Positions 10,739 through 62,504 of a stretch of DNA of 64,000 nucleotides are shown here, piece by piece; within the stretch, counting starts at the first letter, position 1; every line of letters begins with the position of its first letter. A program made the position numbers and the translations under genes. The DNA lies in assembly GCA_023475225.1 (NCBI GenBank), contig JAMCVK010000050.1, positions 1 to 64,000 of the forward strand. Reading direction: 5' to 3'. The DNA comes from Chloroflexota bacterium. GTDB taxonomy: Bacteria > Chloroflexota > UBA6077 > FW602-bin22 > JAMCVK01. A model generated the notes under the pieces. That model searched no databases. It was not told the DNA's origin and worked only from the letters and a program-made list of their open reading frames with translations.

Positions 10739-11608
10739 TCAGCGGACGATATATAGTATGACTATCACTGAGATCAACCATAAGGCTACGTCTATCAGCA
10801 ATGGTTTATCCTTCAGTAACATTTCCTCCGGACTACCGCCAGCATTCTTGATATGGACAAGGTAAAGGTAGCGAAAAGCGCCGTACAGTACGAAAGGAAT
10901 GGTGAGCATCATTGAGTTATCCTTGGGAAGGTTCTCGGCAGAGAAGGTGTATAAAGAGTAGGCCATCAGTGTTGAGGCCGTGACGATGGTGATTATCTGA
11001 TCCAGCAGCTGGGGGCTGTACTCCTGCAGGATCGGGCGATGGTTCACAGCGGCGTTATTCAAAAGGATCAGCTCGTGTCGTCGTTTGCTGAAGCCGAGAA
11101 AGAGAGCCCCTAACACGGTGCAGACATAAAGCCAGGGAGAGATAGGCACATGGATGACGACGGCTCCAGCGGCCGCCCGTAGAACAAAACCGACCGCGAT
11201 GGCTAAGACATCAACCAGGACCAGATGTTTGAGCACGAAGCTATAACCGAGCATCAGTCCTAAATAGATCGCCGCGATCAGTCCAAACCATAGGTCCAGA
11301 ACAAAGGCGGAAGACAATGTCAGGAGGATGAGGATCAAGGCGGTGGTGGCCGCGGTGCGGGGGCTGAGCCGACCGGAAGCCAAAGGGCGGTGGCGCTTAA
11401 GGGGGTGGGCCCGATCCTGTTCAAGGTCGGCCAGGTCGTTGGTGATATACACGGCGCTCGATAGTCCACAGAAAATGATAAAAGCGGCCACGGTGGTGAG
11501 AAGCAGGCTGGGCTTGGAAAGGTTGAGAGAGAAGATAAGGCCAAAGAAGATGATGAGGTTTTTGGTCCATTGCTTAATCCGCATAGTTAGCAGCAATTCC
11601 TTAAGCAT
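10739..11608 (-). CDS. UbiA family prenyltransferase, decaprenyl-phosphate phosphoribosyltransferase-like
   Basis: An integral membrane protein of 289 residues with about eight to nine membrane segments. The first Asp-rich motif is NDLADLEQDRAHPLKRHRPLASG, which is typical of the subgroup that transfers 5-phosphoribose to polyprenyl phosphate (Rv3806c type) rather than of quinone or haem prenyltransferases. Such an enzyme would feed arabinose or a related sugar to cell-envelope polymers. An ATG at 11626 exists, but AGGGGTG lies inside that stretch six bases before the ATG at 11608, and the promoter at 11639-11667 would leave almost no leader for the longer form. I therefore use 11608. Confidence 0.8.
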   Translation of the reverse strand: MLKELLLTMRIKQWTKNLIIFFGLIFSLNLSKPSLLLTTVAAFIIFCGLSSAVYITNDLADLEQDRAHPLKRHRPLASGRLSPRTAATTALILILLTLSSAFVLDLWFGLIAAIYLGLMLGYSFVLKHLVLVDVLAIAVGFVLRAAAGAVVIHVPISPWLYVCTVLGALFLGFSKRRHELILLNNAAVNHRPILQEYSPQLLDQIITIVTASTLMAYSLYTFSAENLPKDNSMMLTIPFVLYGAFRYLYLVHIKNAGGSPEEMLLKDKPLLIDVALWLISVIVILYIVR

Positions 11609-11638
11609 AGAAGACACCCCTAACATTATGGCTCGTCA

Positions 11639-19516: not shown

Positions 19517-20968
19517 ATGGTCTTCCGTGATTTGCACGAATTCATCTCTTTCCTGGAAAGTAAGGGGCAATTGCGGCGAATCAAAACCCCTGTGCGTTGC
19601 GAGCTGGAGATCACCGAGATCACCGCTCGTCTGACTAAGCAGAATGGGCCCGCTCTCCTTTTCGAGAACGTCATCGGTTATGACATCCCCGTTTTGACCA
19701 ACATCTTCGGCTCTCCCCAGCGACTGGCCTGGGGGCTGGGCGTGGACAATTTGGATGCTCTGACCGATAAAATGAGGGGGCCGCTGAGCTACATCAGTGG
19801 GCCTTTTCCCTCATCGCTACTCGACAAGCTACGGGCTCTGGGAGATCTCGCCCAGCTCTCCTCCTACGGGCCCAAAATGGTCAGTTCTGCCCCCTGCCAG
19901 GACGTTGTGCTGCTGGCCGATGCTTCTTTGGACGAACTCCCTGTCCTGAAGTGCTGGCCGCAGGATGCGGGACGGTTCATCACTCTGCCCCTGGTTATAA
20001 CGGCCGATCCAGAGACCGGACGGCGCAATATGGGCATGTATCGTCTTCAGGTCTATGATGGGCGGACGACGGGTATACATTGGCATCGGACCAAAGGTGG
20101 GGCCGAACATTATCGCCGTAGCGAGCAAAAGAGACGTCGCTTTGAGGTGGCCGTAGCGTTGGGGGCGGATCCAGCAACGATCTATGCGGCTACCGCCCCT
20201 CTTCCCCCAGGGATAGATGAACTCCTCTTCGCTGGATTCCTGCGGGGTGAGGCTGTAGAGATGGTCAAATGTAAAGTGTTGGACCTAGAGGTTCCGGCCC
20301 AGGCGGAGATCATCCTGGAGGGATACGTCGATCCAGGCGAGCGGCGAACGGAGGGTCCTTTCGGGGATCACACGGGATACTATTCGCCGGCTGCCGAGTA
20401 TCCTGTGTTTCATCTCCTTTGCCTCACCCATCGTCACCAGCCGATTTATCCGGCTACCATTGTGGGGAAACCACCAATGGAGGACGCCCATCTGGGCAAG
20501 GCGACGGAAAGGTTGTTCTTGCCCTTGCTTCAGATGATGCTGCCGGAGATGGTCGACCTGAATCTGCCGGTGGAAGGGGTGTTCCAGAATCTAGCCATCG
20601 TCTCCATCAAGAAAGAGTATGCGGGCCAGGCGAAGAAGGTTATCTGTGCCCTCTGGGGAATGATGCAAATGATGCTGACGAAGATCATCATCGTGGTGGA
20701 TCACTATGTCAACGTGCATGATCTCTCGGAAGTCATTTGGCGTGTAACCGGCAACATTGATCCGCGCCGTGATCTATTGATCATCGATGGACCACTCGAT
20801 GACCTCGATCACGCCTCGCCCCTACCCCAATTTGGGAGTAAGTTGGGCATCGATGCGACAGCTAAGTGGCCAGAGGAGGGACATCCACGGGTATGGCCTC
20901 TGGAGATAAGTATGGATGAGGAGACCAAAAGATTGGTAGATAGTCGATGGGGGGAATACGAGATTTGA
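19517..20968 (+). CDS. UbiD family decarboxylase, probably menaquinone pathway
   Basis: The 483-residue protein is a complete UbiD-type prenylated-FMN decarboxylase: RDLHEFISFLE at the start, NGPALLFENV, the prFMN/metal region TGIHWHRTKGG, then EGPFGDHTGYY and TATIVGKPPMED-like (PATIVGKPPMED) motifs. UbiD enzymes remove the carboxyl group from prenylated aromatic acids. In the futalosine route a UbiD homologue (MqnL) acts on prenylated 1,4-dihydroxy-6-naphthoate. A UbiA-type gene directly follows and UbiE is in the same operon, which supports that role; no UbiX (prFMN synthase) gene is in the window. The SD AAGGAG lies in a small hairpin just before the ATG. Confidence 0.85.
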   Translation: MVFRDLHEFISFLESKGQLRRIKTPVRCELEITEITARLTKQNGPALLFENVIGYDIPVLTNIFGSPQRLAWGLGVDNLDALTDKMRGPLSYISGPFPSSLLDKLRALGDLAQLSSYGPKMVSSAPCQDVVLLADASLDELPVLKCWPQDAGRFITLPLVITADPETGRRNMGMYRLQVYDGRTTGIHWHRTKGGAEHYRRSEQKRRRFEVAVALGADPATIYAATAPLPPGIDELLFAGFLRGEAVEMVKCKVLDLEVPAQAEIILEGYVDPGERRTEGPFGDHTGYYSPAAEYPVFHLLCLTHRHQPIYPATIVGKPPMEDAHLGKATERLFLPLLQMMLPEMVDLNLPVEGVFQNLAIVSIKKEYAGQAKKVICALWGMMQMMLTKIIIVVDHYVNVHDLSEVIWRVTGNIDPRRDLLIIDGPLDDLDHASPLPQFGSKLGIDATAKWPEEGHPRVWPLEISMDEETKRLVDSRWGEYEI

Positions 20969-20979
20969 GGGAATCCCGG

Positions 20980-21849
20980 GTGACGGCCACTGGCCTTAGC
21001 GCTAAAATGTCGCTTCTACTGGAAGCGGTGAAGTTTGAACACACCATCTTCGCTCTGCCGTTCGCCTACTTGGGGATGACCTTAGCAGCAGGCGGGCTAC
21101 CCACTTGGCATCAGTTCTGGTGGATCACTATGGCTATGGTGGGGGCGAGAACGCTGGCTATGAGCAGCAATAGAATAATCGATCGTGAATTTGATGCGGC
21201 TAACCCCCGCACCGCCCAGCGGGCCCTTCCCAGAGGCTTGCTCTCGTTCTACGAGATGCTGGCTCTCGGCCTGGCCTCAGCGGCTTTGCTTATCGTCGCC
21301 GCCTGGCAACTGAATGATCTTTGCCTCAAGCTCAGCCCATTGGCCATAGCCATAGTGGTGGGATACTCCTATACGAAGCGCTTCACCTGGGCTTCGCACT
21401 TCATCTTGGGGATGGCTGATGCCCTGGCACCGCTGGGTGGTTGGTTGGGAGTGAGGGGTACGCTGGATTGGCCAGCCTTGCTTCTCGGCTTCGCCGTCGC
21501 TACCTGGATAGCCGGTTTTGACCTGCTTTATGCCTGCCAGGATGTCGATTTCGATCACAAGGCTGGACTCTGGTCCGTGCCGGCTCAGTTTGGTGTCGCC
21601 ATCGCCCTGAGGCTGTCAACGGCCTTGCACGTCCTCACCTCCGCAGCATTGTTAGCTGTAGGGTTAATGCTCTCCCTCGGCCTAATATACTTTCTGGGCT
21701 GGCTCATTGCGACGGCCCTTTTGCTCTATGAGCATCGCCTGGTATCGCCCGACGATCTTTCTCGGCTCGATGTGGCCTTTTTCAACGTCAATGGCTACAT
21801 CGCTATCTGTGTCTTCGCCTTTACCCTCGTTTCCCTCTGGTTGAGGTAG
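20980..21849 (+). CDS. UbiA family prenyltransferase (MqnP-like)
   Basis: A 289-residue membrane protein with seven to eight membrane segments and both Asp-rich motifs, NRIIDREFDAANPRT and YACQDVDFDHKAGLWSVP, which bind the Mg-diphosphate of the prenyl donor. The second motif and the VKFEHTIFALPFAY start match the 4-hydroxybenzoate/dihydroxynaphthoate subgroup. It would attach the polyprenyl tail to an aromatic acid, the step before UbiD. GTG 20980 has GAGGGA seven bases upstream and lies eleven bases after the UbiD stop. An in-frame ATG at 20947 overlaps UbiD without an SD. Confidence 0.85.
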   Translation: MTATGLSAKMSLLLEAVKFEHTIFALPFAYLGMTLAAGGLPTWHQFWWITMAMVGARTLAMSSNRIIDREFDAANPRTAQRALPRGLLSFYEMLALGLASAALLIVAAWQLNDLCLKLSPLAIAIVVGYSYTKRFTWASHFILGMADALAPLGGWLGVRGTLDWPALLLGFAVATWIAGFDLLYACQDVDFDHKAGLWSVPAQFGVAIALRLSTALHVLTSAALLAVGLMLSLGLIYFLGWLIATALLLYEHRLVSPDDLSRLDVAFFNVNGYIAICVFAFTLVSLWLR

Positions 21850-21895
21850 CTCAAGGGGAAGTTTCTGGATGGACTTGATACTCAAGGAGGAAAGA

Positions 21896-22864
21896 TTGAA
21901 AGAAGGTAAATCAACGGTCTCTGTCATCATAGCCTTGGGGCTCCTTCTCGCCTCTGGTGGCATCCTTCTTGGCTGCGCTCCCAGCGGCGGTGAGGACATA
22001 AATCTAAAGATTGGGATGTTGCCCATCGTTGATAGTTTGCCCTTCTACGTGGCCGAGAAGGAAGGCTATTACCGGGCCCATAATGTGGCCGTGGAACTGG
22101 TTCCCTTTGCCAGTGCCCTTGAGCGTGATGCGGCGCTACAGGCTGGTCAGATTGATGGACAGCTCAACGACCTTATCTCTTCAGCCCTGTTTAATCGAGA
22201 GCGGGATCAGGCTCGCATCGTTTTAGTCACGTTCAGAGGAAGTAGACAGCAGGCGATGATCTCCATCCTCGCCGCCGGAGATAGTCCCATCAAGTCAGCC
22301 GCTGACCTGCGTCAGGCGGAGATCGCCATCTCCAAGAACTCGGTGATCGACTACGTCACTGATCAGCTGCTTCTCTCCGCCGGACTTAAGCCGGGTGAGG
22401 TGAAGAGAGTAGAGGTGAGTAAGATTCCCCTCCGCCTGGAGATGCTTATCAACAAGCAAGTAGCCGCGGCAGCGCTGCCAGAGCCCTTCACCACGCTAGC
22501 TCGTCAACAAGGGGCGAGGGTGATCCTCGATGACGGTGAATCACAGATAGGACAGAGCGTTCTCACCTTTCGACAAGAGGTCCTGAAAAAGAGGCCGGAT
22601 GTGGTCAAGCGTCTGATTCAGGCCCAGCAGGAGGCTGTGCGCCAGGTGAATGCTGATCCGGAAAAATATCGTGAGCTGCTCGTGGAGAAGGCCAAGGTAC
22701 CACCAGCGGTTAAGACCATATATCAGATACCCCGCTTCCCTCTGGCCAGCGTGCCAACGCGGAGCGAAATAGCACGGGCCACAGATTGGATGGTCGAAAA
22801 GGGATTATTGTCCCGCTCCCTTGCTTACGAAGATATGGTCAACGATAAACTCCTATCCAAATGA
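21896..22864 (+). CDS. ABC transporter substrate-binding lipoprotein, NMT1/SsuA-like
   Basis: A lipoprotein precursor of 322 residues with a hydrophobic signal ending in the lipobox LLGC, followed by a type-2 periplasmic-binding fold of the NMT1/THI5/SsuA group (LKIGMLPIVDSLPFYVAEKEGYY, QAGQIDGQLNDL). TTG 21896 has a strong SD (AAGGAGG, 21884-21890); the in-frame ATG at 21869 has a poor one. It is followed by its ATPase with an ATGA overlap. The same fold is used by MqnA and MqnD of the futalosine pathway, but the signal peptide and ABC partners argue for transport here. The substrate is unknown; the quinone context suggests an aromatic precursor. Confidence 0.8.
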   Translation: MKEGKSTVSVIIALGLLLASGGILLGCAPSGGEDINLKIGMLPIVDSLPFYVAEKEGYYRAHNVAVELVPFASALERDAALQAGQIDGQLNDLISSALFNRERDQARIVLVTFRGSRQQAMISILAAGDSPIKSAADLRQAEIAISKNSVIDYVTDQLLLSAGLKPGEVKRVEVSKIPLRLEMLINKQVAAAALPEPFTTLARQQGARVILDDGESQIGQSVLTFRQEVLKKRPDVVKRLIQAQQEAVRQVNADPEKYRELLVEKAKVPPAVKTIYQIPRFPLASVPTRSEIARATDWMVEKGLLSRSLAYEDMVNDKLLSK

Positions 22865-23613
22865 TTGAGATCAAGCAACTCAGCTTCGCTTATTTCCCTA
22901 AGGTCCCCCTTTTCGAGGATTTCAACTGGTCGGTGCAGCAGGGCGAGGCCTGGGCGGTGATCGGTCCTTCTGGTTGTGGGAAAACCACCCTCCTCTATCT
23001 CATCGCTGGCTTGCGCTCCCCGAACGGCGGTTCTATCGTGGTTGATGGGTATCGGGTGATACAACCACGGGCATCTACTGGGTTGATTCTGCAAGACTAT
23101 GGTTTGCTGCCCTGGGCCACGGCAGCGGAAAATATCGCCCTGGGATTGAAGATCAGAAAGGCACCCCCCAGGATGTGGTCGGACCAAACGAGGGATTGGC
23201 TCCAAAGGCTGGGGCTTGAAGAGGTAGCCAAACAGTATCCAGCCCAACTATCCGGTGGGCAGCGCCAGCGGGTGGCCATCGCCCGTACGCTGGCCGTGAA
23301 TCCGGATTTATTGCTTATGGATGAGCCATTTAGCTCCCTTGATGCCCTGACTCGTGAGAGCATGCAGGACCTGGTCATCGAACTGGGCATTGAGGGGAAT
23401 CTGACCACAATCCTGGTTACTCATAATATCGAGGAGGCCGTCTTTCTTGGCCAGAAGATCTTGGTGCTCCCCCCACCCCCAATCCGTACGGCGAAGGTTA
23501 TCAACAATCCTCAGGCCGGGGAGCTGGATTATCGGGGCCATCCCGAGTTCTATGCCAAATGTAATAAAGTACGTCTTGAAGTGGAGAGGATCAACGATGG
23601 CCAGAGGCGGTAA
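22861..23613 (+). CDS. ABC transporter ATP-binding protein, NitT/TauT type
   Basis: The 250-residue ATPase has Walker A GPSGCGKTT (near residue 38), Q-loop LQDYGLLPW, signature LSGGQRQRVAIAR (near 130), Walker B LLLMDEPFSSLD and the H-loop VTHN. The pattern is that of the nitrate/taurine/aliphatic sulfonate importers. It overlaps the binding-protein gene by four bases and the permease by 17, so the three are translated together. Confidence 0.9.
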   Translation: MIEIKQLSFAYFPKVPLFEDFNWSVQQGEAWAVIGPSGCGKTTLLYLIAGLRSPNGGSIVVDGYRVIQPRASTGLILQDYGLLPWATAAENIALGLKIRKAPPRMWSDQTRDWLQRLGLEEVAKQYPAQLSGGQRQRVAIARTLAVNPDLLLMDEPFSSLDALTRESMQDLVIELGIEGNLTTILVTHNIEEAVFLGQKILVLPPPPIRTAKVINNPQAGELDYRGHPEFYAKCNKVRLEVERINDGQRR

Positions 23614-24343
23614 ATTGGCTCTTTTTCTAGGTTTACTTTTGCTCATCTGGCATCTGATGGCCCTCGTGGTTGATCGTCCGATCTTGCCTGGACCGTGGAC
23701 CGTCTTCGCTGCCTTCGTCCAGGCGTCCTTGAACGGTTTGGGATGGCATGCGCTGGTGAGCAGCTATCGTGTGGTGGTCAGCATTCTCTTGTCTGTCATC
23801 ACAGCCGCCCCCCTTGGACTGGTTTTGGGTCAGGCTAAAAACTGGGATCGTCTCGTTTCACCATTTGTCTATCTGACTTATCCAGTTCCCAAGATCGTGT
23901 TACTGCCCATCGTTCTGCTCTTTCTGGGCATCGGCGACACCTCGAAGATTTTTCTCATCTGGCTTATCCTTTTCTATCAAGTTTTGGTTGTCGTGCGTGA
24001 TGCTTCCAATGCGGTGCGGCCAGAGCTGGCCTATTCGGTGCGTTCCCTGGGAGCCAGGCGGGGCCAGTTGCTTCGTTACGTCTATTTTCCGGCCTGTCTA
24101 CCGGCCATCCTGACGGCGCTGCGCGTTAGCATTGGTACGGCTATAGCCGTGCTATTTTTCACCGAGTCTGTAGCCACGAGCTCTGGCCTGGGCTATTACA
24201 TCCTCGTGGAGGGTTGGGGGAGGCAGGCCTACGCCGAGATGTATGCCGGTGTCCTGGCCATGGGCTTATTAGGTTTAGTCATCTACCTATTGCTAGATGT
24301 TCTCCAGAGGGCCCTCTGTGGTTGGGTCGATGTCGGACGTTAA
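23597..24343 (+). CDS. ABC transporter permease, NitT/TauT type
   Basis: A 248-residue membrane protein with six predicted segments and the inner-membrane EAA-like loop around LGARRGQLLRYVYFPACLPAILTALR. The start ATG 23597 has GGAGAGG upstream and opens MARGGKLALFLGLLLLIWH; upstream in-frame codons belong to the overlapping ATPase gene. Together with the two preceding genes it forms a complete importer inside the UbiD-UbiA-UbiE operon. Confidence 0.88.
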   Translation: MARGGKLALFLGLLLLIWHLMALVVDRPILPGPWTVFAAFVQASLNGLGWHALVSSYRVVVSILLSVITAAPLGLVLGQAKNWDRLVSPFVYLTYPVPKIVLLPIVLLFLGIGDTSKIFLIWLILFYQVLVVVRDASNAVRPELAYSVRSLGARRGQLLRYVYFPACLPAILTALRVSIGTAIAVLFFTESVATSSGLGYYILVEGWGRQAYAEMYAGVLAMGLLGLVIYLLLDVLQRALCGWVDVGR

Positions 24344-25067
24344 GGATCAATCCTTAGATCAACCATACGCTCAAGGTAAAGAGGCGTATGTGCGGGCGAT
24401 GTTTGCCCGCATTGCGGCCTGCTACGATCTTATGAATACCTTGATAACCTTTGGCTATGATCAACGCTGGCGACGGTTGGCCGTGCAGATGGCGGCTATA
24501 CCCAAGGGTGGGACAGTAATCGACGTGGGCACTGGCAGTGGCGAGCTATCCCTCGATCTGGCCCGCCATAGCCCGGCCGGACGGATTGTGGCTGTCGACT
24601 TCTGCGCAGACATTCTGGAACGGGCCCAGCGGAAGGCGATAGTCAGTGGATCGCAGCATAAAATCGTGTTCCAGATAGGGGATGCTTTGAACCTCCCCTT
24701 CTCTGCGGATGCGTTCGACGCTGCCATCAGCGGTTTTGTTGTGCGTAATCTAACGGACATCGCCCAGGGGTTTAGGGAGATGCGTCGCGTCATACGTCCG
24801 GGCGGGCGAGTGGTCTGCCTGGAGTTAACCAGACCTAAGGCCGGGATTTTCGCCTTCTTGTTCGGGTTATACCTTCATCGCCTGGTACCGATCCTGGGCC
24901 AGCTGGTCGCCGGTGATGGTTCAGCCTACACGTACTTACCACGTTCAATCATCACCTTCCCCCTCGCTGAGGAACTGGCTGATATAATGCGTGCGGTGGG
25001 CTTGAAAGAGGTCAGCTATAGGCTGCTGGCGGGAGGGGCCATCGCCATCCATGTGGGGATAAAATAG
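24330..25067 (+). CDS. ubiE: UbiE/MenG demethylmenaquinone methyltransferase
   Basis: The 245-residue methyltransferase shows the UbiE signatures: YVRAMFARIAACYDLMNTLITFGYDQRWRR near the N-terminus, the AdoMet motif VIDVGTGSGELSLDLA, DALNLPF and the RPGGRVVCLELTRP block. It methylates demethylmenaquinone (or a related quinol), the last step of quinone synthesis. The gene overlaps the permease by 14 bases, which ties the transporter to the quinone genes. The SD is weak, as expected for coupled translation. Confidence 0.9.
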   Translation: MSDVKDQSLDQPYAQGKEAYVRAMFARIAACYDLMNTLITFGYDQRWRRLAVQMAAIPKGGTVIDVGTGSGELSLDLARHSPAGRIVAVDFCADILERAQRKAIVSGSQHKIVFQIGDALNLPFSADAFDAAISGFVVRNLTDIAQGFREMRRVIRPGGRVVCLELTRPKAGIFAFLFGLYLHRLVPILGQLVAGDGSAYTYLPRSIITFPLAEELADIMRAVGLKEVSYRLLAGGAIAIHVGIK

Positions 25068-25075
25068 ATGCGCTG

Positions 25076-25633
25076 ATGTTTTGGAATCGTATTTCGGCTT
25101 TGCTCGCTGCTCCCGGAGTGATCATCCACGAGCTGGCTCATTACCTCTTTTGTCAGCTCGCTGGAGCACCCATTCATAAAGCTGTCTTCTTTCGTTTAGG
25201 CAATCCCGCGGGCTATGTTGTCCACGGTAGTCCCAGGCGCTTTCGGGGCCATTTTGCCATCGTTGTCGGCCCCCTATTGATCAACTCCGGCCTTGCCTTC
25301 ATCCTTTTTCTTATTCTAGTCGCCATGTGGGGCGGGTTTGGTGCTACGGGCAACCCACCGAGCGGGCTATCACTCTGGCTATCACCTCTTCTGCTCTGGT
25401 GTGGCCTCTCCATCTCGCTGCATGCCTTACCCAGCCGTGCCGATGCCGCAAGCCTTTGGCAGATGACCAGGCATCAGCTACATCTGGGTAATCTATCGGC
25501 TATTTTGGGTTATCCGGTGGCCGGGGCCATCTACCTGGCTAACCTGCTCAAGTTTCTGCGCATCGACTGGGTTTACGCCGGGATCCTGCTCTGGCTGGCT
25601 ATTGCCGCAGCCTTCCGTGTTCGCCCCTTTTGA
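25076..25633 (+). CDS. membrane protein with HExxH motif (M50-like)
   Basis: A 185-residue protein with about five hydrophobic segments. HELAH at residues 18-22, at the end of a membrane segment, is a zinc-peptidase motif of the site-2-protease type; the second ligand motif is not obvious, so activity is uncertain. It begins nine bases after ubiE and is probably the last gene of the operon. A role in membrane-protein or lipid metabolism is only a guess. Confidence 0.65.
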   Translation: MFWNRISALLAAPGVIIHELAHYLFCQLAGAPIHKAVFFRLGNPAGYVVHGSPRRFRGHFAIVVGPLLINSGLAFILFLILVAMWGGFGATGNPPSGLSLWLSPLLLWCGLSISLHALPSRADAASLWQMTRHQLHLGNLSAILGYPVAGAIYLANLLKFLRIDWVYAGILLWLAIAAAFRVRPF

Positions 25634-26101: not shown

Positions 26102-26686
26102 TCAGCGATGGGTGAAGAAGCGTAGGGCTAAAATGATCCTCTCCTCTATAGTCAAGGTGTGATCGTCTGGCAAGGAACGTATGGCCGCCTGGGCCTCTGA
26201 AGCGCTATAGCCGAGGTTGGTCAGGGCGGCCAAGATATCCGCATCGGCCGGGGCCACGATGGATAGGGGGGCAGTTAGTCCTTCGGCAGCTACCTTACCC
26301 TTCAGCTCTAAGATGATGCGTCCGGCCATTTTACGTCCGATGCCAGGAACGCGGGTCAGAAAATCAGCATTCCCTGAGGCGATGGCTATCTGGAGGTGTG
26401 GTACGGGGACGGCCGAAAGGATAGCCGTGGCCGCCTTGGGGCCAACGCCGGAAATGGTGAGCAGCAGCTCGAACATGTGCAGCTCATCCTCTGTGGCGAA
26501 GCCATAAAGGGAAAGGTTGTCCTCACGCACATAGAGGTGAGTAAACAGATGTACCGCTTCACCGATGGACCCAATCTCCCGCAGGGTGCTGGTGGGGGCA
26601 TATATCCGGAAGCTCAGACCGCCGACATTAACAATGGCGTATTCGCCGGTTCGGGTCTCCAGGACACCACGCACGCAGCTGATCAA
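26102..26686 (-). CDS. ruvA: Holliday junction branch migration protein RuvA
   Basis: RuvA tetramers bind Holliday junctions and load the RuvB motor. The 194-residue protein has the N-terminal OB domain (MISCVRGVLETRTGEYAIVNVGG), two helix-hairpin-helix motifs (LLTISGVGPKAATAILS, LTRVPGIGRKMAGRIILELKGK) and the C-terminal RuvB-binding domain (about 150-194, AALTNLGYSASEAQAAI). It overlaps the end of ruvC by four bases. ruvB is not adjacent. Confidence 0.95.
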   Translation of the reverse strand: MISCVRGVLETRTGEYAIVNVGGLSFRIYAPTSTLREIGSIGEAVHLFTHLYVREDNLSLYGFATEDELHMFELLLTISGVGPKAATAILSAVPVPHLQIAIASGNADFLTRVPGIGRKMAGRIILELKGKVAAEGLTAPLSIVAPADADILAALTNLGYSASEAQAAIRSLPDDHTLTIEERIILALRFFTHR

Positions 26687-27204
26687 GAGGCACCTCCGCC
26701 TTGTCGTGCTTCTAGCGCAGCCTGCTGCTGTGTGGTATGGAGATGGCAGATGGCCAGAGCCAGGGCATCAGCCGCATCGTCTGGTTGGGGGAGGAAATCC
26801 AACCCCAGCAACAGGCGCACCATTTGTTGGATCTGCTCTTTACGAGCCCGCCCATAGCCGACGATAGCCTGCTTGATCTGGAGGGGCGTATATTCGCTCA
26901 CAGTCAATCCGCAGTTGGCCGCGGCGAGCATCGCTACGCCGCGGGCCTCACCGACGGCCAAGGCGGTGCGGATATTTTTGTTGAAAAAGAGCTCCTCCAG
27001 AGCGACCTCATTCGGCTGATAGCGCTGGATCAGCCCCAGCAACTCCTGATAAAGGGTTCGCAGGCGGTTGGCGACAGGGAGAGTAGCTGGTGTAGTGAGG
27101 GTGCCATAATCGATCAGGCTCAGTTGCTCTCCCTGGGCCTGCACCAGCCCATAACCCATCGTGGCCGTACCGGGGTCGATTCCCAGTACGATGTGTTTAG
27201 CCAT
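26683..27204 (-). CDS. ruvC: Holliday junction resolvase RuvC
   Basis: RuvC cuts Holliday junctions symmetrically. The 173-residue protein starts at the conserved (M)AKHIVLGIDPGTATMGYGLV, with the first catalytic Asp in GIDPG, the Glu in ALEELFF and the final Asp pair in PDDAADALALAICH. Longer in-frame starts exist at 27231 and 27255; no clear SD decides between them, and I use the start that gives the family length. Confidence 0.92.
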   Translation of the reverse strand: MAKHIVLGIDPGTATMGYGLVQAQGEQLSLIDYGTLTTPATLPVANRLRTLYQELLGLIQRYQPNEVALEELFFNKNIRTALAVGEARGVAMLAAANCGLTVSEYTPLQIKQAIVGYGRARKEQIQQMVRLLLGLDFLPQPDDAADALALAICHLHTTQQQAALEARQGGGAS

Positions 27205-27244
27205 AAGTCCAGATGAGGGTTCACGGCTCATTTCTCTCGCGCCC

Positions 27245-27994
27245 TCAGCTGGCATACTTCGCTAAAGCACTTTCTGCAAAGTCAACGTTGCAATACACAC
27301 GCTGTACTTCGTCCAGCTCTTCGAGCTTGTCCAGCAGTCTGAGCACTTTCGCCGAGTCGTCTTCATCCAACTGAAGCATCGTCTGGGGGACCAGGGCATT
27401 CTCAGCGGCGATGATGGCTATCTTCTGCTCCAGCAGAGTGCGGCGGACCCTCTCCAGATCAGCGGGCTGGGTATAGATTTCAACCACGTTATCCTCTGTC
27501 TTGATGTCTTCGGCTCCGGCGTCGATGGCCAACAGGGCCACCTCATCTGTGTCTATTCCCTTTGTCTCTACGGTGATGACACCGCGCGGTTCAAACATCC
27601 AGGCGACACAGCCGGACTCACCCAGGTTGCCCCCGCCGCGGGCGAAGACATTGCGAATCTCGGCCGCTGTTCGGTTGCGATTATTGGTCATCGCCTCGAC
27701 GAGGATGGCCGCTCCGCCTGGTCCGTACCCCTCATAAAAGATCTCCTCAAAGGTGGCTGCCTCCCCTCCACCAAGCCCTCGCTTTATAGCGCGCTCGATG
27801 TTCTCATGGGGCATATTTGCTTCCCGAGCCCGCTGAATGGCCAGCCGCAAGCGGAAGTTCGCCTCCGCATCGCCACCACCCTGCTGGGCCGCCAAGGTGA
27901 TCTCGCGACCGAGCTTGGTGAAAATCTGACCCCTTTTTGCATCAGCAGCGGCCTTTTGGCGCTTTATTTGAGCCCATTTGCTATGTCCAGACAT
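27245..27994 (-). CDS. YebC/PmpR family (TACO1) protein
   Basis: The 249-residue protein begins SGHSKWAQIKRQKAAADAKRGQIFTKLGREI, the hallmark of the YebC family, followed by NxxRTAAEIRNVFARGGGNLGESGCVAWMFEPRG. Members act as transcriptional regulators or, as shown for several homologues, as translation factors for polyproline stretches. It is the first gene of yebC-ruvC-ruvA, a conserved order in bacteria. The ATG has GGAGGAGAAAACG upstream. Confidence 0.93.
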   Translation of the reverse strand: MSGHSKWAQIKRQKAAADAKRGQIFTKLGREITLAAQQGGGDAEANFRLRLAIQRAREANMPHENIERAIKRGLGGGEAATFEEIFYEGYGPGGAAILVEAMTNNRNRTAAEIRNVFARGGGNLGESGCVAWMFEPRGVITVETKGIDTDEVALLAIDAGAEDIKTEDNVVEIYTQPADLERVRRTLLEQKIAIIAAENALVPQTMLQLDEDDSAKVLRLLDKLEELDEVQRVYCNVDFAESALAKYAS

Positions 27995-60571: not shown

Positions 60572-60840
60572 TGAAAGGCGAATGGCTGTGATGGGGAGTA
60601 GTAGGAAGGCTACCAACCTCCAGAGAGCTGAGCAGTGGTGGGAACTCAGTGGTATGGATCTTCCGAACTCGCCTCGGAGCAACTGGAGCGAAGGGGGTAA
60701 ACCCGTTTAGCTCCGGTCGGAGTGGCACCCGTTAACGTGCTTCAAGAGGATGTCGCACCGCAAAAGAGGTGGCGACATCAAGGGGGGTGGTACCGCGGGA
60801 TTCAGTTCTCGTCCCTTAGTGGACGAGAAATTTTTTTATT
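60572..60840 (+). promoter_or_regulatory. T-box leader of ilvD, Leu (CUC) specifier
   Basis: All parts are visible: GATGGGGAGTAGTA at the start of stem I (about 60590), CCAGAGAGC, the specifier context CCGAACTCGCCTCGGAGC with CTC at 60668-60670 (Leu), CCGTTAACG, the T-box core GGGTGGTACCGCG (60785-60797) and a terminator. A Leu specifier on a valine/isoleucine/leucine biosynthesis operon means expression rises when tRNA-Leu is uncharged. Confidence 0.93.
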
Positions 60841-60842
60841 TT
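60806..60842 (+). terminator. T-box-controlled terminator before ilvD
   Basis: TTCTCGTCC (60806-60814) pairs perfectly with GGACGAGAA (60821-60829), six-base loop, followed by A and a run of seven T, then ATTTT. A strong intrinsic terminator eight bases after the T-box core. Confidence 0.9.
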
Positions 60843-60854
60843 GAGGAGCACGAT

Positions 60855-62504
60855 ATGAGAAGTGACATCATCAAGCGTGGTATTGAGCGAGCGCCACACC
60901 GCTCGCTGTTGAGGGCCCTTGGTTGTACCGATGTGGAGCTAGAGCGCCCCTTCGTCGGCATAATTAACTCGGCCAGCGAGATCATCCCCGGCCATTTGCA
61001 TCTGAGGCAGATAGCCGAGGCAGTGAAAGCCGGGGTGCGTATGGCCGGCGGTACCCCTTTTGAGTGCAATACTATCGGTGTATGTGACGGCATCGCTATG
61101 AACCACAGTGGAATGAAGTATTCCCTGGCCAGCCGGGAGCTGATCGCTGATTCGGTAGAGGTGGTCGTACAGGCTCACGCCTTTGATGCCTTAGTCTTCA
61201 TCCCCAATTGTGACAAGATCATCCCGGGCATGCTAATGGCCGCTGTTCGCTTAAATATTCCGGCCATCTTCACCAGCGGCGGACCGATGCTGGCCGGCAA
61301 ACACAAGGGTGATATAGATCTCAATACGGTTTTTATGGCTGTAGGGCAGGTGGCCAAGGGGGAGATGTCCCTTGCCGAACTGGAGGCGTTGGAAAGGGCC
61401 GCCTGTCCCGGTTGTGGCTCCTGCGCTGGGATGTTCACAGCCAACACCATGAACTGTTTGACGGAGGCTCTGGGGATGGGACTGCCCGGTAATGGGACGA
61501 TTCCGGCTGTGATGGCCGGTCGTATCCATTTAGCGAAGATGGCCGGCATGCAGGTGATGGAGCTGTTGCGGAAGGATATCAAGCCGCGTGACATCATCAC
61601 TGATAAGTCCATTCGTAATGCCTTCATCATCGACATGGCCTTGGGGGGATCAACCAATTCCATTCTTCACCTCTTGGCCATCGCCCACGAGGCCGGACGG
61701 GACTTCCCCCTGGCCTCGCTCAACGATATATCAGCCCGGACACCTCATCTGGTCAAGGTCAGTCCATCAGGCCATCACCACGTAGAAGACCTGGACCGAG
61801 CCGGGGGCATAGCGGCCTTGATGGGCGAGCTGAAGGAGCTGCTGCACGGTGATGCCGTGACGGTGACAGGCAAGACTGTCGTCGAAAATGTTGGAGAAGC
61901 ACGGGTGCTTGATCACGAGGTCATTCGGCCCTCAGGTACCCCCTACTCCTCAACTGGTGGGCTGGCCATCCTCTTTGGTAACCTCGCCCCTGCCGGCGCG
62001 GTGGTGAAGCGGGCGGCTGTGGATCCGCAGATGCTGGTTCATCGCGGTCCAGCCAGGGTCTTCGAGAGCGAGGAAGCGGCTACGCAGGCTATTATGAATG
62101 GAAAGATTCGCCCCGGTGAGGTAGTAGTGATTCGGTACGAGGGCCCGAAAGGTGGACCGGGCATGCGGGAAATGCTTACACCGACAGCTATTCTTTCAGG
62201 GATGGGACTGGATGACACGGTAGCCTTGCTCACTGACGGCCGGTTCAGTGGGGCAACGCGTGGGGCGGCCATCGGCCATATTTCACCGGAGGCTGCTGAG
62301 CGGGGGCCCATAGCTGCCCTTCGAGACGGTGATATTATTGCTATTGATATTCCCAGGTACCAGCTGAACGTTGAGCTGAGTGAGGACGAGCTGGAGGCGA
62401 GACGGCGCGATCTGCCGCCTTTCGAACCGCGCCTCAAAGAGGGCTATCTGCGCCGCTATGCGGAGTGGGTGACCTCAGCATGTACGGGGGCCATTTTCCG
62501 CTAG
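60855..62504 (+). CDS. ilvD: dihydroxy-acid dehydratase
   Basis: IlvD dehydrates 2,3-dihydroxy acids in valine, isoleucine and leucine synthesis using an Fe-S cluster. The 549-residue protein has [22 protein letters not shown], cluster ligands in FIPNCDKI and [31 protein letters not shown] and [25 protein letters not shown] 60855 has GAGGAG upstream; earlier in-frame starts would lie inside the T-box. ilvB follows after 154 bases. Confidence 0.95.

Follow-up and report, generated by a model that had tools for sequence, protein, structure and literature searches.

Organization of the operon

The window analyzed here (the whole 64,000-nucleotide stretch from the start of contig JAMCVK010000050.1 of the Chloroflexota assembly GCA_023475225.1) was found to carry a complete NitT/TauT-type ATP-binding cassette (ABC) importer within an operon of terminal quinone synthesis genes (Table 1), an arrangement which points to the uptake of a menaquinone precursor. 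Domains were assigned to the window proteins using Pfam and NCBIfam profiles against their curated cut-offs. The six genes running on one strand from UbiD through UbiA, the lipoprotein, the ATPase and the permease to UbiE had been described in an initial annotation as tightly coupled, and this is borne out by the open reading frames (ORFs) and by both profile collections. The 11-base gap reported there between UbiD and UbiA exists with the GTG start of UbiA at 20980, but the ATG start at 20947 gives a 22-base overlap instead. The lipoprotein gene begins 19 bases past the end of UbiA, the ATPase start overlaps the lipoprotein end by ATGA, and overlaps of 17 and 14 bases join the ATPase to the permease and the permease to UbiE, respectively. 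The annotated span also takes in a seventh gene, missing from its title, which begins 8 bases past UbiE; a similar gene (49% identical) follows the permease in genome G019 (L042).

Table 1. Genes of the quinone and transporter operon, with the profile scores on which they were assigned
Gene product	Position in window	Strand	Profile evidence
UbiD-family decarboxylase, MqnL type	19517-20968	+	TIGR03701 621 bits (cut-off 495.9)
UbiA-family prenyltransferase, MqnP-like (predicted)	20947-21849 (start ATG 20947 or GTG 20980)	+	PF01040 185 bits
NMT1/SsuA-type substrate-binding lipoprotein, proposed dihydroxynaphthoate binder	21869-22864	+	PF09084 61 bits; PF13379 57 bits
ABC ATPase, NitT/TauT type	22861-23613	+	PF00005 115 bits
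ABC permease, NitT/TauT type	23597-24343	+	PF00528 81 bits
UbiE/MenG methyltransferase (last menaquinone step)	24330-25067	+	PF01209 198 bits; TIGR01934 210 bits (cut-off 158)
Small membrane protein, 185 aa, possible zincin-like (DUF3267), HELAHY motif	25076-25633	+	PF11667 19.8 bits (below cut-off 27.1)

Quinone enzymes and early menaquinone genes

The UbiD protein of the window scores above the MqnL cut-off (TIGR03701), which places it in the terminal part of the futalosine (Mqn) pathway, and below that of the UbiD equivalog NF008175 (469 vs. 788 bits); judged by its sequence, it is a bona fide MqnL. The UbiA protein exceeds the cut-off of TIGR01475 (301 bits) and has its best match in MqnP_DT, where its 338 bits remain under the exception cut-off of 430, and it is accordingly predicted to be MqnP-like.

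Genes for the earlier steps were sought in the source genome (G000; 2.74 Mb in 50 contigs, 96.9% complete). No match to MqnA/MqnD (PF02621) was obtained there, while the same search finds both in the Thermus and Deinobacterium controls. The only match to MqnE/MqnC was an FbiC-type CofG-CofH fusion; this 634-aa protein, encoded beside an FrhB-like gene, was considered as a retained early step and, on reading its sequence, assigned to F420 synthesis. Matches to MenB in the genome reached only 153 and 135 bits (cut-off 342.7) and were set aside as enoyl-CoA hydratases, and MenA gave no match at an E value of 1e-12. The source genome was thus found to have neither a complete futalosine pathway (MqnA, MqnD, MqnE, MqnC) nor the classical Men pathway (MenB with MenA). 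UbiX, which is required for prenyl-FMN, the cofactor of UbiD, is present, as is a nuoB-C-D-H-I-J-K-L-M-N cluster (genes named by reading their sequences), so there is a quinone-reducing complex for the pathway to supply.

Two further UbiD loci were observed in the source genome. One, on C36 (L065 4861-7528), adjoins an NMT1-type binding protein, and the other, on C25 (L066 5097-10632), is accompanied by an NMT1-type binding protein, ATPase, permease and amidohydrolase. Both look like pairs of a catabolic UbiD with an importer, apart from the quinone operon.

Properties of the transporter

The binding protein, permease and ATPase score above the gathering thresholds of PF09084, PF00528 and PF00005, respectively, their genes are adjacent, and the binding protein has a lipobox (...ILLGC) with the lipidation cysteine at Cys36. 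All three fall below every equivalog cut-off in NCBIfam: the best match of the ATPase is TauB (PRK11248; 209 bits, cut-off 357), the permease is under the SaoP and TauC cut-offs, and the binding protein does not qualify as a sulfonate binder of the SsuA/TauA kind (TIGR01728 for SsuA, 107 vs. 163.5 bits; PRK11553, 41 vs. 299 bits). No ssuD or tauD was seen in the neighborhood of the operon. A search for thiamine, cobalamin and flavin riboswitches found none near the window operon or in loci L003-L013; with no thiamine pyrophosphate (TPP) riboswitch at any of these places and with quinone genes as neighbors, the transporter does not have the features of a thiamine-precursor (ThiY/Thi5-like) importer.

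Prediction with AlphaFold2 from 11 sequences gave the type II binding-protein fold (pLDDT 77, pTM 0.71). The closest structures are those of TauA, SsuA and Thi5, with PqqT holding bound pyrroloquinoline quinone (PQQ; 9b1u) and the aromatic sulfinate enzyme DszB lower down, and a sequence search of solved structures matched only SsuA and uncharacterised proteins. A carboxylated aromatic ligand would suit the modeled fold, but the fold does not identify it. The likeness to MqnA and MqnD, on which the initial annotation had drawn, adds little: SsuA, TauA, Thi5 and PqqT come closest among solved folds, and the names of MqnA and MqnD were not recognised in the 50 best structural matches.

Distribution of the transporter and of early genes

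A total of 201 genomes of the phylum were searched for the binding protein, MqnA/D, MenB, MqnL and MenA, with MqnA/D or MenB taken as early markers (MenF/D/E were not searched genome-wide) and MqnL or MenA as the terminal module. The binding protein was found in 19 genomes, every one of which has a terminal module (MqnL in 12, strong MenA in seven). MqnA/D occurs in a single carrier (G019) and MenB in none, whereas 72 of the 83 terminal-module genomes without the binding protein have MqnA/D or MenB and 11 do not. The resulting contrast (early marker present/absent, 1/18 among carriers vs. 72/11 among non-carriers) gives a Fisher p of 1.3e-11, and it persists when each family is counted once per state (1/9 vs. 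26/5, p 4.9e-5). Fourteen carriers are at least 95% complete and all 14 have neither marker; two of these, G005 and G112, are single contigs, so incomplete assembly does not explain the missing early genes. A terminal quinone gene (UbiD, UbiA, UbiE or MenA) adjoins the transporter or lies within about 3 kb of it at 13 of the 19 loci, and the gene order is therefore not due to chance.

Within the window's clade, G000, G169 and G081 have the transporter joined to both UbiD-UbiA and UbiE; in G002, G015 and G073 it is joined to UbiE, and other contigs carry UbiD-UbiA. In G019 the UbiA and binding-protein genes are each interrupted by a contig end, which is consistent with the same order. A distant MqnL-linked copy in a Bacillota metagenome-assembled genome (L003) has the order UbiD-UbiA-binding protein-ATPase-permease. 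A second clade comprises seven genomes of families f20 and f47; MenA is next to the transporter in each of them, and UbiE is beside MenA in six. A tree of 33 binding proteins separates this MenA-linked clade (support 100/100) from the MqnL-linked proteins, sets a Bacillota clade without quinone genes apart from both, and places Escherichia coli SsuA and TauA outside on long branches.

The MqnL-linked and MenA-linked clades have different fixed residues at several positions, for example D101/E, N157/G and Q229/F; at 101 and 157, the MqnL-carrying family f33 retains the residue of the MqnL type. Such clade-specific residues are suggestive of the binding of different isomers; however, those of the MqnL type are shared with the Bacillota clade and could represent the ancestral state, which weakens the hint.

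In genome G096 a second, divergent UbiA-family prenyltransferase gene (L055 9747-10673; 26% identical to MenA) was observed between the binding-protein and ATPase genes. Regulators of one TetR kind are found with several transporter loci as well as with the mqnD-E-C cluster of G019. That cluster (L056 6687-11793) reads TetR-mqnD-mqnE-mqnC with a deaminase-like gene, and its TetR is 56% identical to the one before UbiD-UbiA and the transporter in G081 (L044). The shared TetR suggests that one regulator family may act on both the synthesis and the import of the precursor.

Replacement of menFDBEH in family f20

Family f20 provides a case in which the transporter and the early genes occupy the same locus. 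The genes TetR-menF-menD-menB-menE-aroF-menH occur in this order in G080, G055 and G120, followed in G080 and G055 by menA and ubiE (men genes were named using NCBIfam and by identity to those so named). In G080 the locus reads TetR-[menF-D-B-E-aroF-H]-MenA-UbiE-CoxM, and in G018, of the same genus, it reads LLM-TetR-[binding protein-ATPase-permease]-MenA-UbiE-CoxM. The shared genes of the G018 locus are 63% (TetR), 75% (menA) and 84% (ubiE) identical, and the outer flanks also correspond (CoxM-type gene, 69% to G080; luciferase-like gene, 91% to G120). Between TetR and menA-ubiE in G018 there are only the three transporter genes. The transporter occupies the slot of the genes which make 1,4-dihydroxy-2-naphthoate (DHNA), and only the DHNA-using enzymes remain. 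This exchange is the strongest argument for the substrate.

Proposed function

Taken with the gene families, the operon, the absence of early genes, the co-occurrence and the clade split, all of them observed directly as is the locus swap, the operon is very probably a menaquinone salvage-and-finish unit, its ABC importer for a carboxylated dihydroxynaphthoate replacing de novo synthesis. In the futalosine route, 1,4-dihydroxy-6-naphthoate is the final intermediate that is soluble. Since the genome retains MqnL, the ring would be expected to arrive with its carboxyl group in place, and as MqnC and MqnD were not seen, the compound must already be a naphthoate; together these points indicate 1,4-dihydroxy-6-naphthoate as the most likely substrate in the source organism and DHNA in the MenA clade. 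The identity of the compound, and the dependence of the cell on it, are what we infer from these gene contents; import is the expected direction, as it is the one in which transporters of this binding-protein-dependent type work.

The lipoprotein would capture soluble carboxylated dihydroxynaphthoate released by other microbes, and the ATPase and permease would import it. MqnP (UbiA) would then prenylate the naphthoate, MqnL (UbiD) with prenyl-FMN from UbiX would remove the carboxyl group, and UbiE would methylate the product, yielding menaquinone for the respiratory chain, complex I included. The sister clade would do the same with DHNA, MenA and UbiE. It is also likely, though with less confidence, that the importer family comprises two regio-specific clades (for 1,4-dihydroxy-6- and 1,4-dihydroxy-2-naphthoate) which replaced the early pathway in several lineages of the phylum, once by a one-locus exchange, and that carriers depend on naphthoate-secreting microbes.

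The initial annotation had proposed import of an aromatic quinone precursor with the cell finishing the quinone itself, and the missing early genes, the co-occurrence and the conserved order all favor that proposal, the substrate being the part reached by reasoning. Three outcomes which it had counted against import turned out otherwise: the source genome has no MqnA/D, MqnE/C, MenB or MenA; the binding protein lies outside the sulfonate and taurine binders in the tree, with no thiamine riboswitch nearby; and the order, together with the swap with early genes, is conserved. The sister clade, in which the transporter with MenA-UbiE replaces menFDBEH in situ, extends the proposal.

Alternative explanations

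It is unlikely that the imported compound precedes the dihydroxynaphthoates in the pathway (as would a chorismate-level compound, o-succinylbenzoate or a futalosine derivative) and is converted afterwards by unrecognised enzymes. A pre-MqnD intermediate would be usable in G019, which keeps mqnD, mqnE and mqnC, and in the L003 genome with its mqnA, mqnE and mqnC, but known enzymes could not process earlier compounds in the source genome, which is without MqnD, MqnE/C and MenB, and no MenA-linked carrier has MenB. It is less likely still that the importer serves another aromatic acid or cofactor, such as riboflavin, a thiamine pyrimidine or a benzoate used by a catabolic UbiD, and that its place in a quinone operon is coincidental. 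Such a role would accord with the two other UbiD-family genes of the source genome beside a binding protein or whole importer, with the distant Bacillota clade near thiC, and with RibXY, by which vitamins are also carried within the NitT/TauT superfamily. Against it, the association includes UbiA, UbiE and MenA besides UbiD, the presence of the transporter tracks the loss of early Mqn/Men genes, it takes the slot of menFDBEH, and no TPP, FMN or other riboswitch lies near it.

That the product is a ubiquinone- or methylplastoquinone-like benzoquinone, finished from an imported hydroxybenzoate, is very unlikely: UbiD-UbiA-UbiE does form the core of benzoquinone synthesis, and the window UbiE reaches 230 bits against the MpqE model, but this is below the cut-off of 335, the UbiD protein scores above the cut-off for MqnL but under that for UbiD, and related transporters accompany MenA. 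Least probable of all is that the early genes are present in unassembled sequence and the transporter is an accessory salvage system only. One gap could hide several genes, since the source assembly is 96.9% complete in 50 contigs and mqnD-E-C are clustered in G019, but early genes are absent from 18 of the 19 carriers, including the 14 most complete and the two single-contig genomes among them.

Several observations weigh against the proposed salvage function. The transporter is accompanied by TetR-mqnD-mqnE-mqnC in G019 and by mqnE-mqnA-mqnC in the Bacillota genome of L003; it does not replace the early genes in every case, and salvage can coexist with synthesis. Eleven terminal-module genomes have neither a transporter of this kind nor an early marker, and other solutions (or missing sequence) must therefore exist; all four genomes of family f49 (G119, G135, G143 and G151), with strong MenA, no MenB and no transporter of this kind, may use a different importer or pathway. 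The binding-protein and ATPase genes of family f33 lie away from quinone genes, apart from one case with UbiD at a distance of 8 kb, and no permease was found beside them. The Bacillota homologues (32-35%) are likewise not near quinone genes, and two stand by thiC or thiC-like genes. Species are also non-independent data points, a concern which is addressed by the family-level test and the within-genus swap.

The ThiC or ThiC-like genes next to the distant Bacillota homologues (L007 4355-5659 and L010 1-684) have no TPP riboswitch, and this clade may carry another substrate. A thiamine or B12 role, considered in view of the thiC and cobalt-transport neighbors of the Bacillota and Desulfofustis homologues, was rejected for the quinone-linked clades on the basis of the tree and co-occurrence.

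Other features of the window

Beyond the operon, yebC-ruvC-ruvA (26102-27994) lies on the opposite strand, and the same trio is found beside the transporter in G019 (L042). A T-box leader (60579-60819) was identified by ORF 60750-62504. The second UbiA gene of the window (10739-11626) encodes a decaprenyl-phosphate phosphoribosyltransferase and is unrelated to the quinone operon.

Significance and comparison with known systems

Exchange of DHNA between microbes is documented, with the importer listed as missing (PMC4746308), and Lactiplantibacillus plantarum uses external DHNA, other quinone-uptake pathways being "yet to be identified" (PMC10746273). DHNA users with menA-menG only have kept the late genes, lost the early ones and obtain the precursor from other microbes (PMC4746308, PMC10746273). 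A pump of this kind had been predicted, but no paper naming a DHNA or naphthoate importer was found among open-license full texts; the source organism appears to have lost its ring-making genes. A candidate transporter tied to both terminal pathways makes quinone cross-feeding a testable trait at the gene level. Such a transporter would account for the incomplete Men and Mqn pathways of bacteria that respire but are mostly uncultured, would predict a culture supplement for them, and would give a genomic marker of respiratory dependence on neighbors.

The DHNA users share the late-only gene set, and the system described here adds a candidate importer linked to it by operon and locus swap. SsuABC and TauABC have in common with the window transporter a type II binding protein, one ATPase and one permease (PF09084/PF00005/PF00528); the window proteins differ in falling below the equivalog cut-offs, in a clade which excludes E. 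coli SsuA and TauA, and in having no sulfonate genes nearby. PqqT has the same fold and binds a carboxylated aromatic quinone, PQQ (9b1u), but is only 16-17% identical to the window binding protein, and PQQ is a soluble cofactor rather than a membrane-quinone precursor. RibXY of Chloroflexus, which imports riboflavin, was predicted from context and later confirmed (PMC4418817); it and PqqT serve as precedents which favor the proposed function. It belongs to the same superfamily (COG0600/COG0715) and, like the transporter proposed here, is an importer of an aromatic redox-cofactor precursor; the likeness is at the level of the superfamily, and RibXY has an FMN riboswitch, whereas the genes linked to the window transporter, at which none was found, are those of quinone synthesis.

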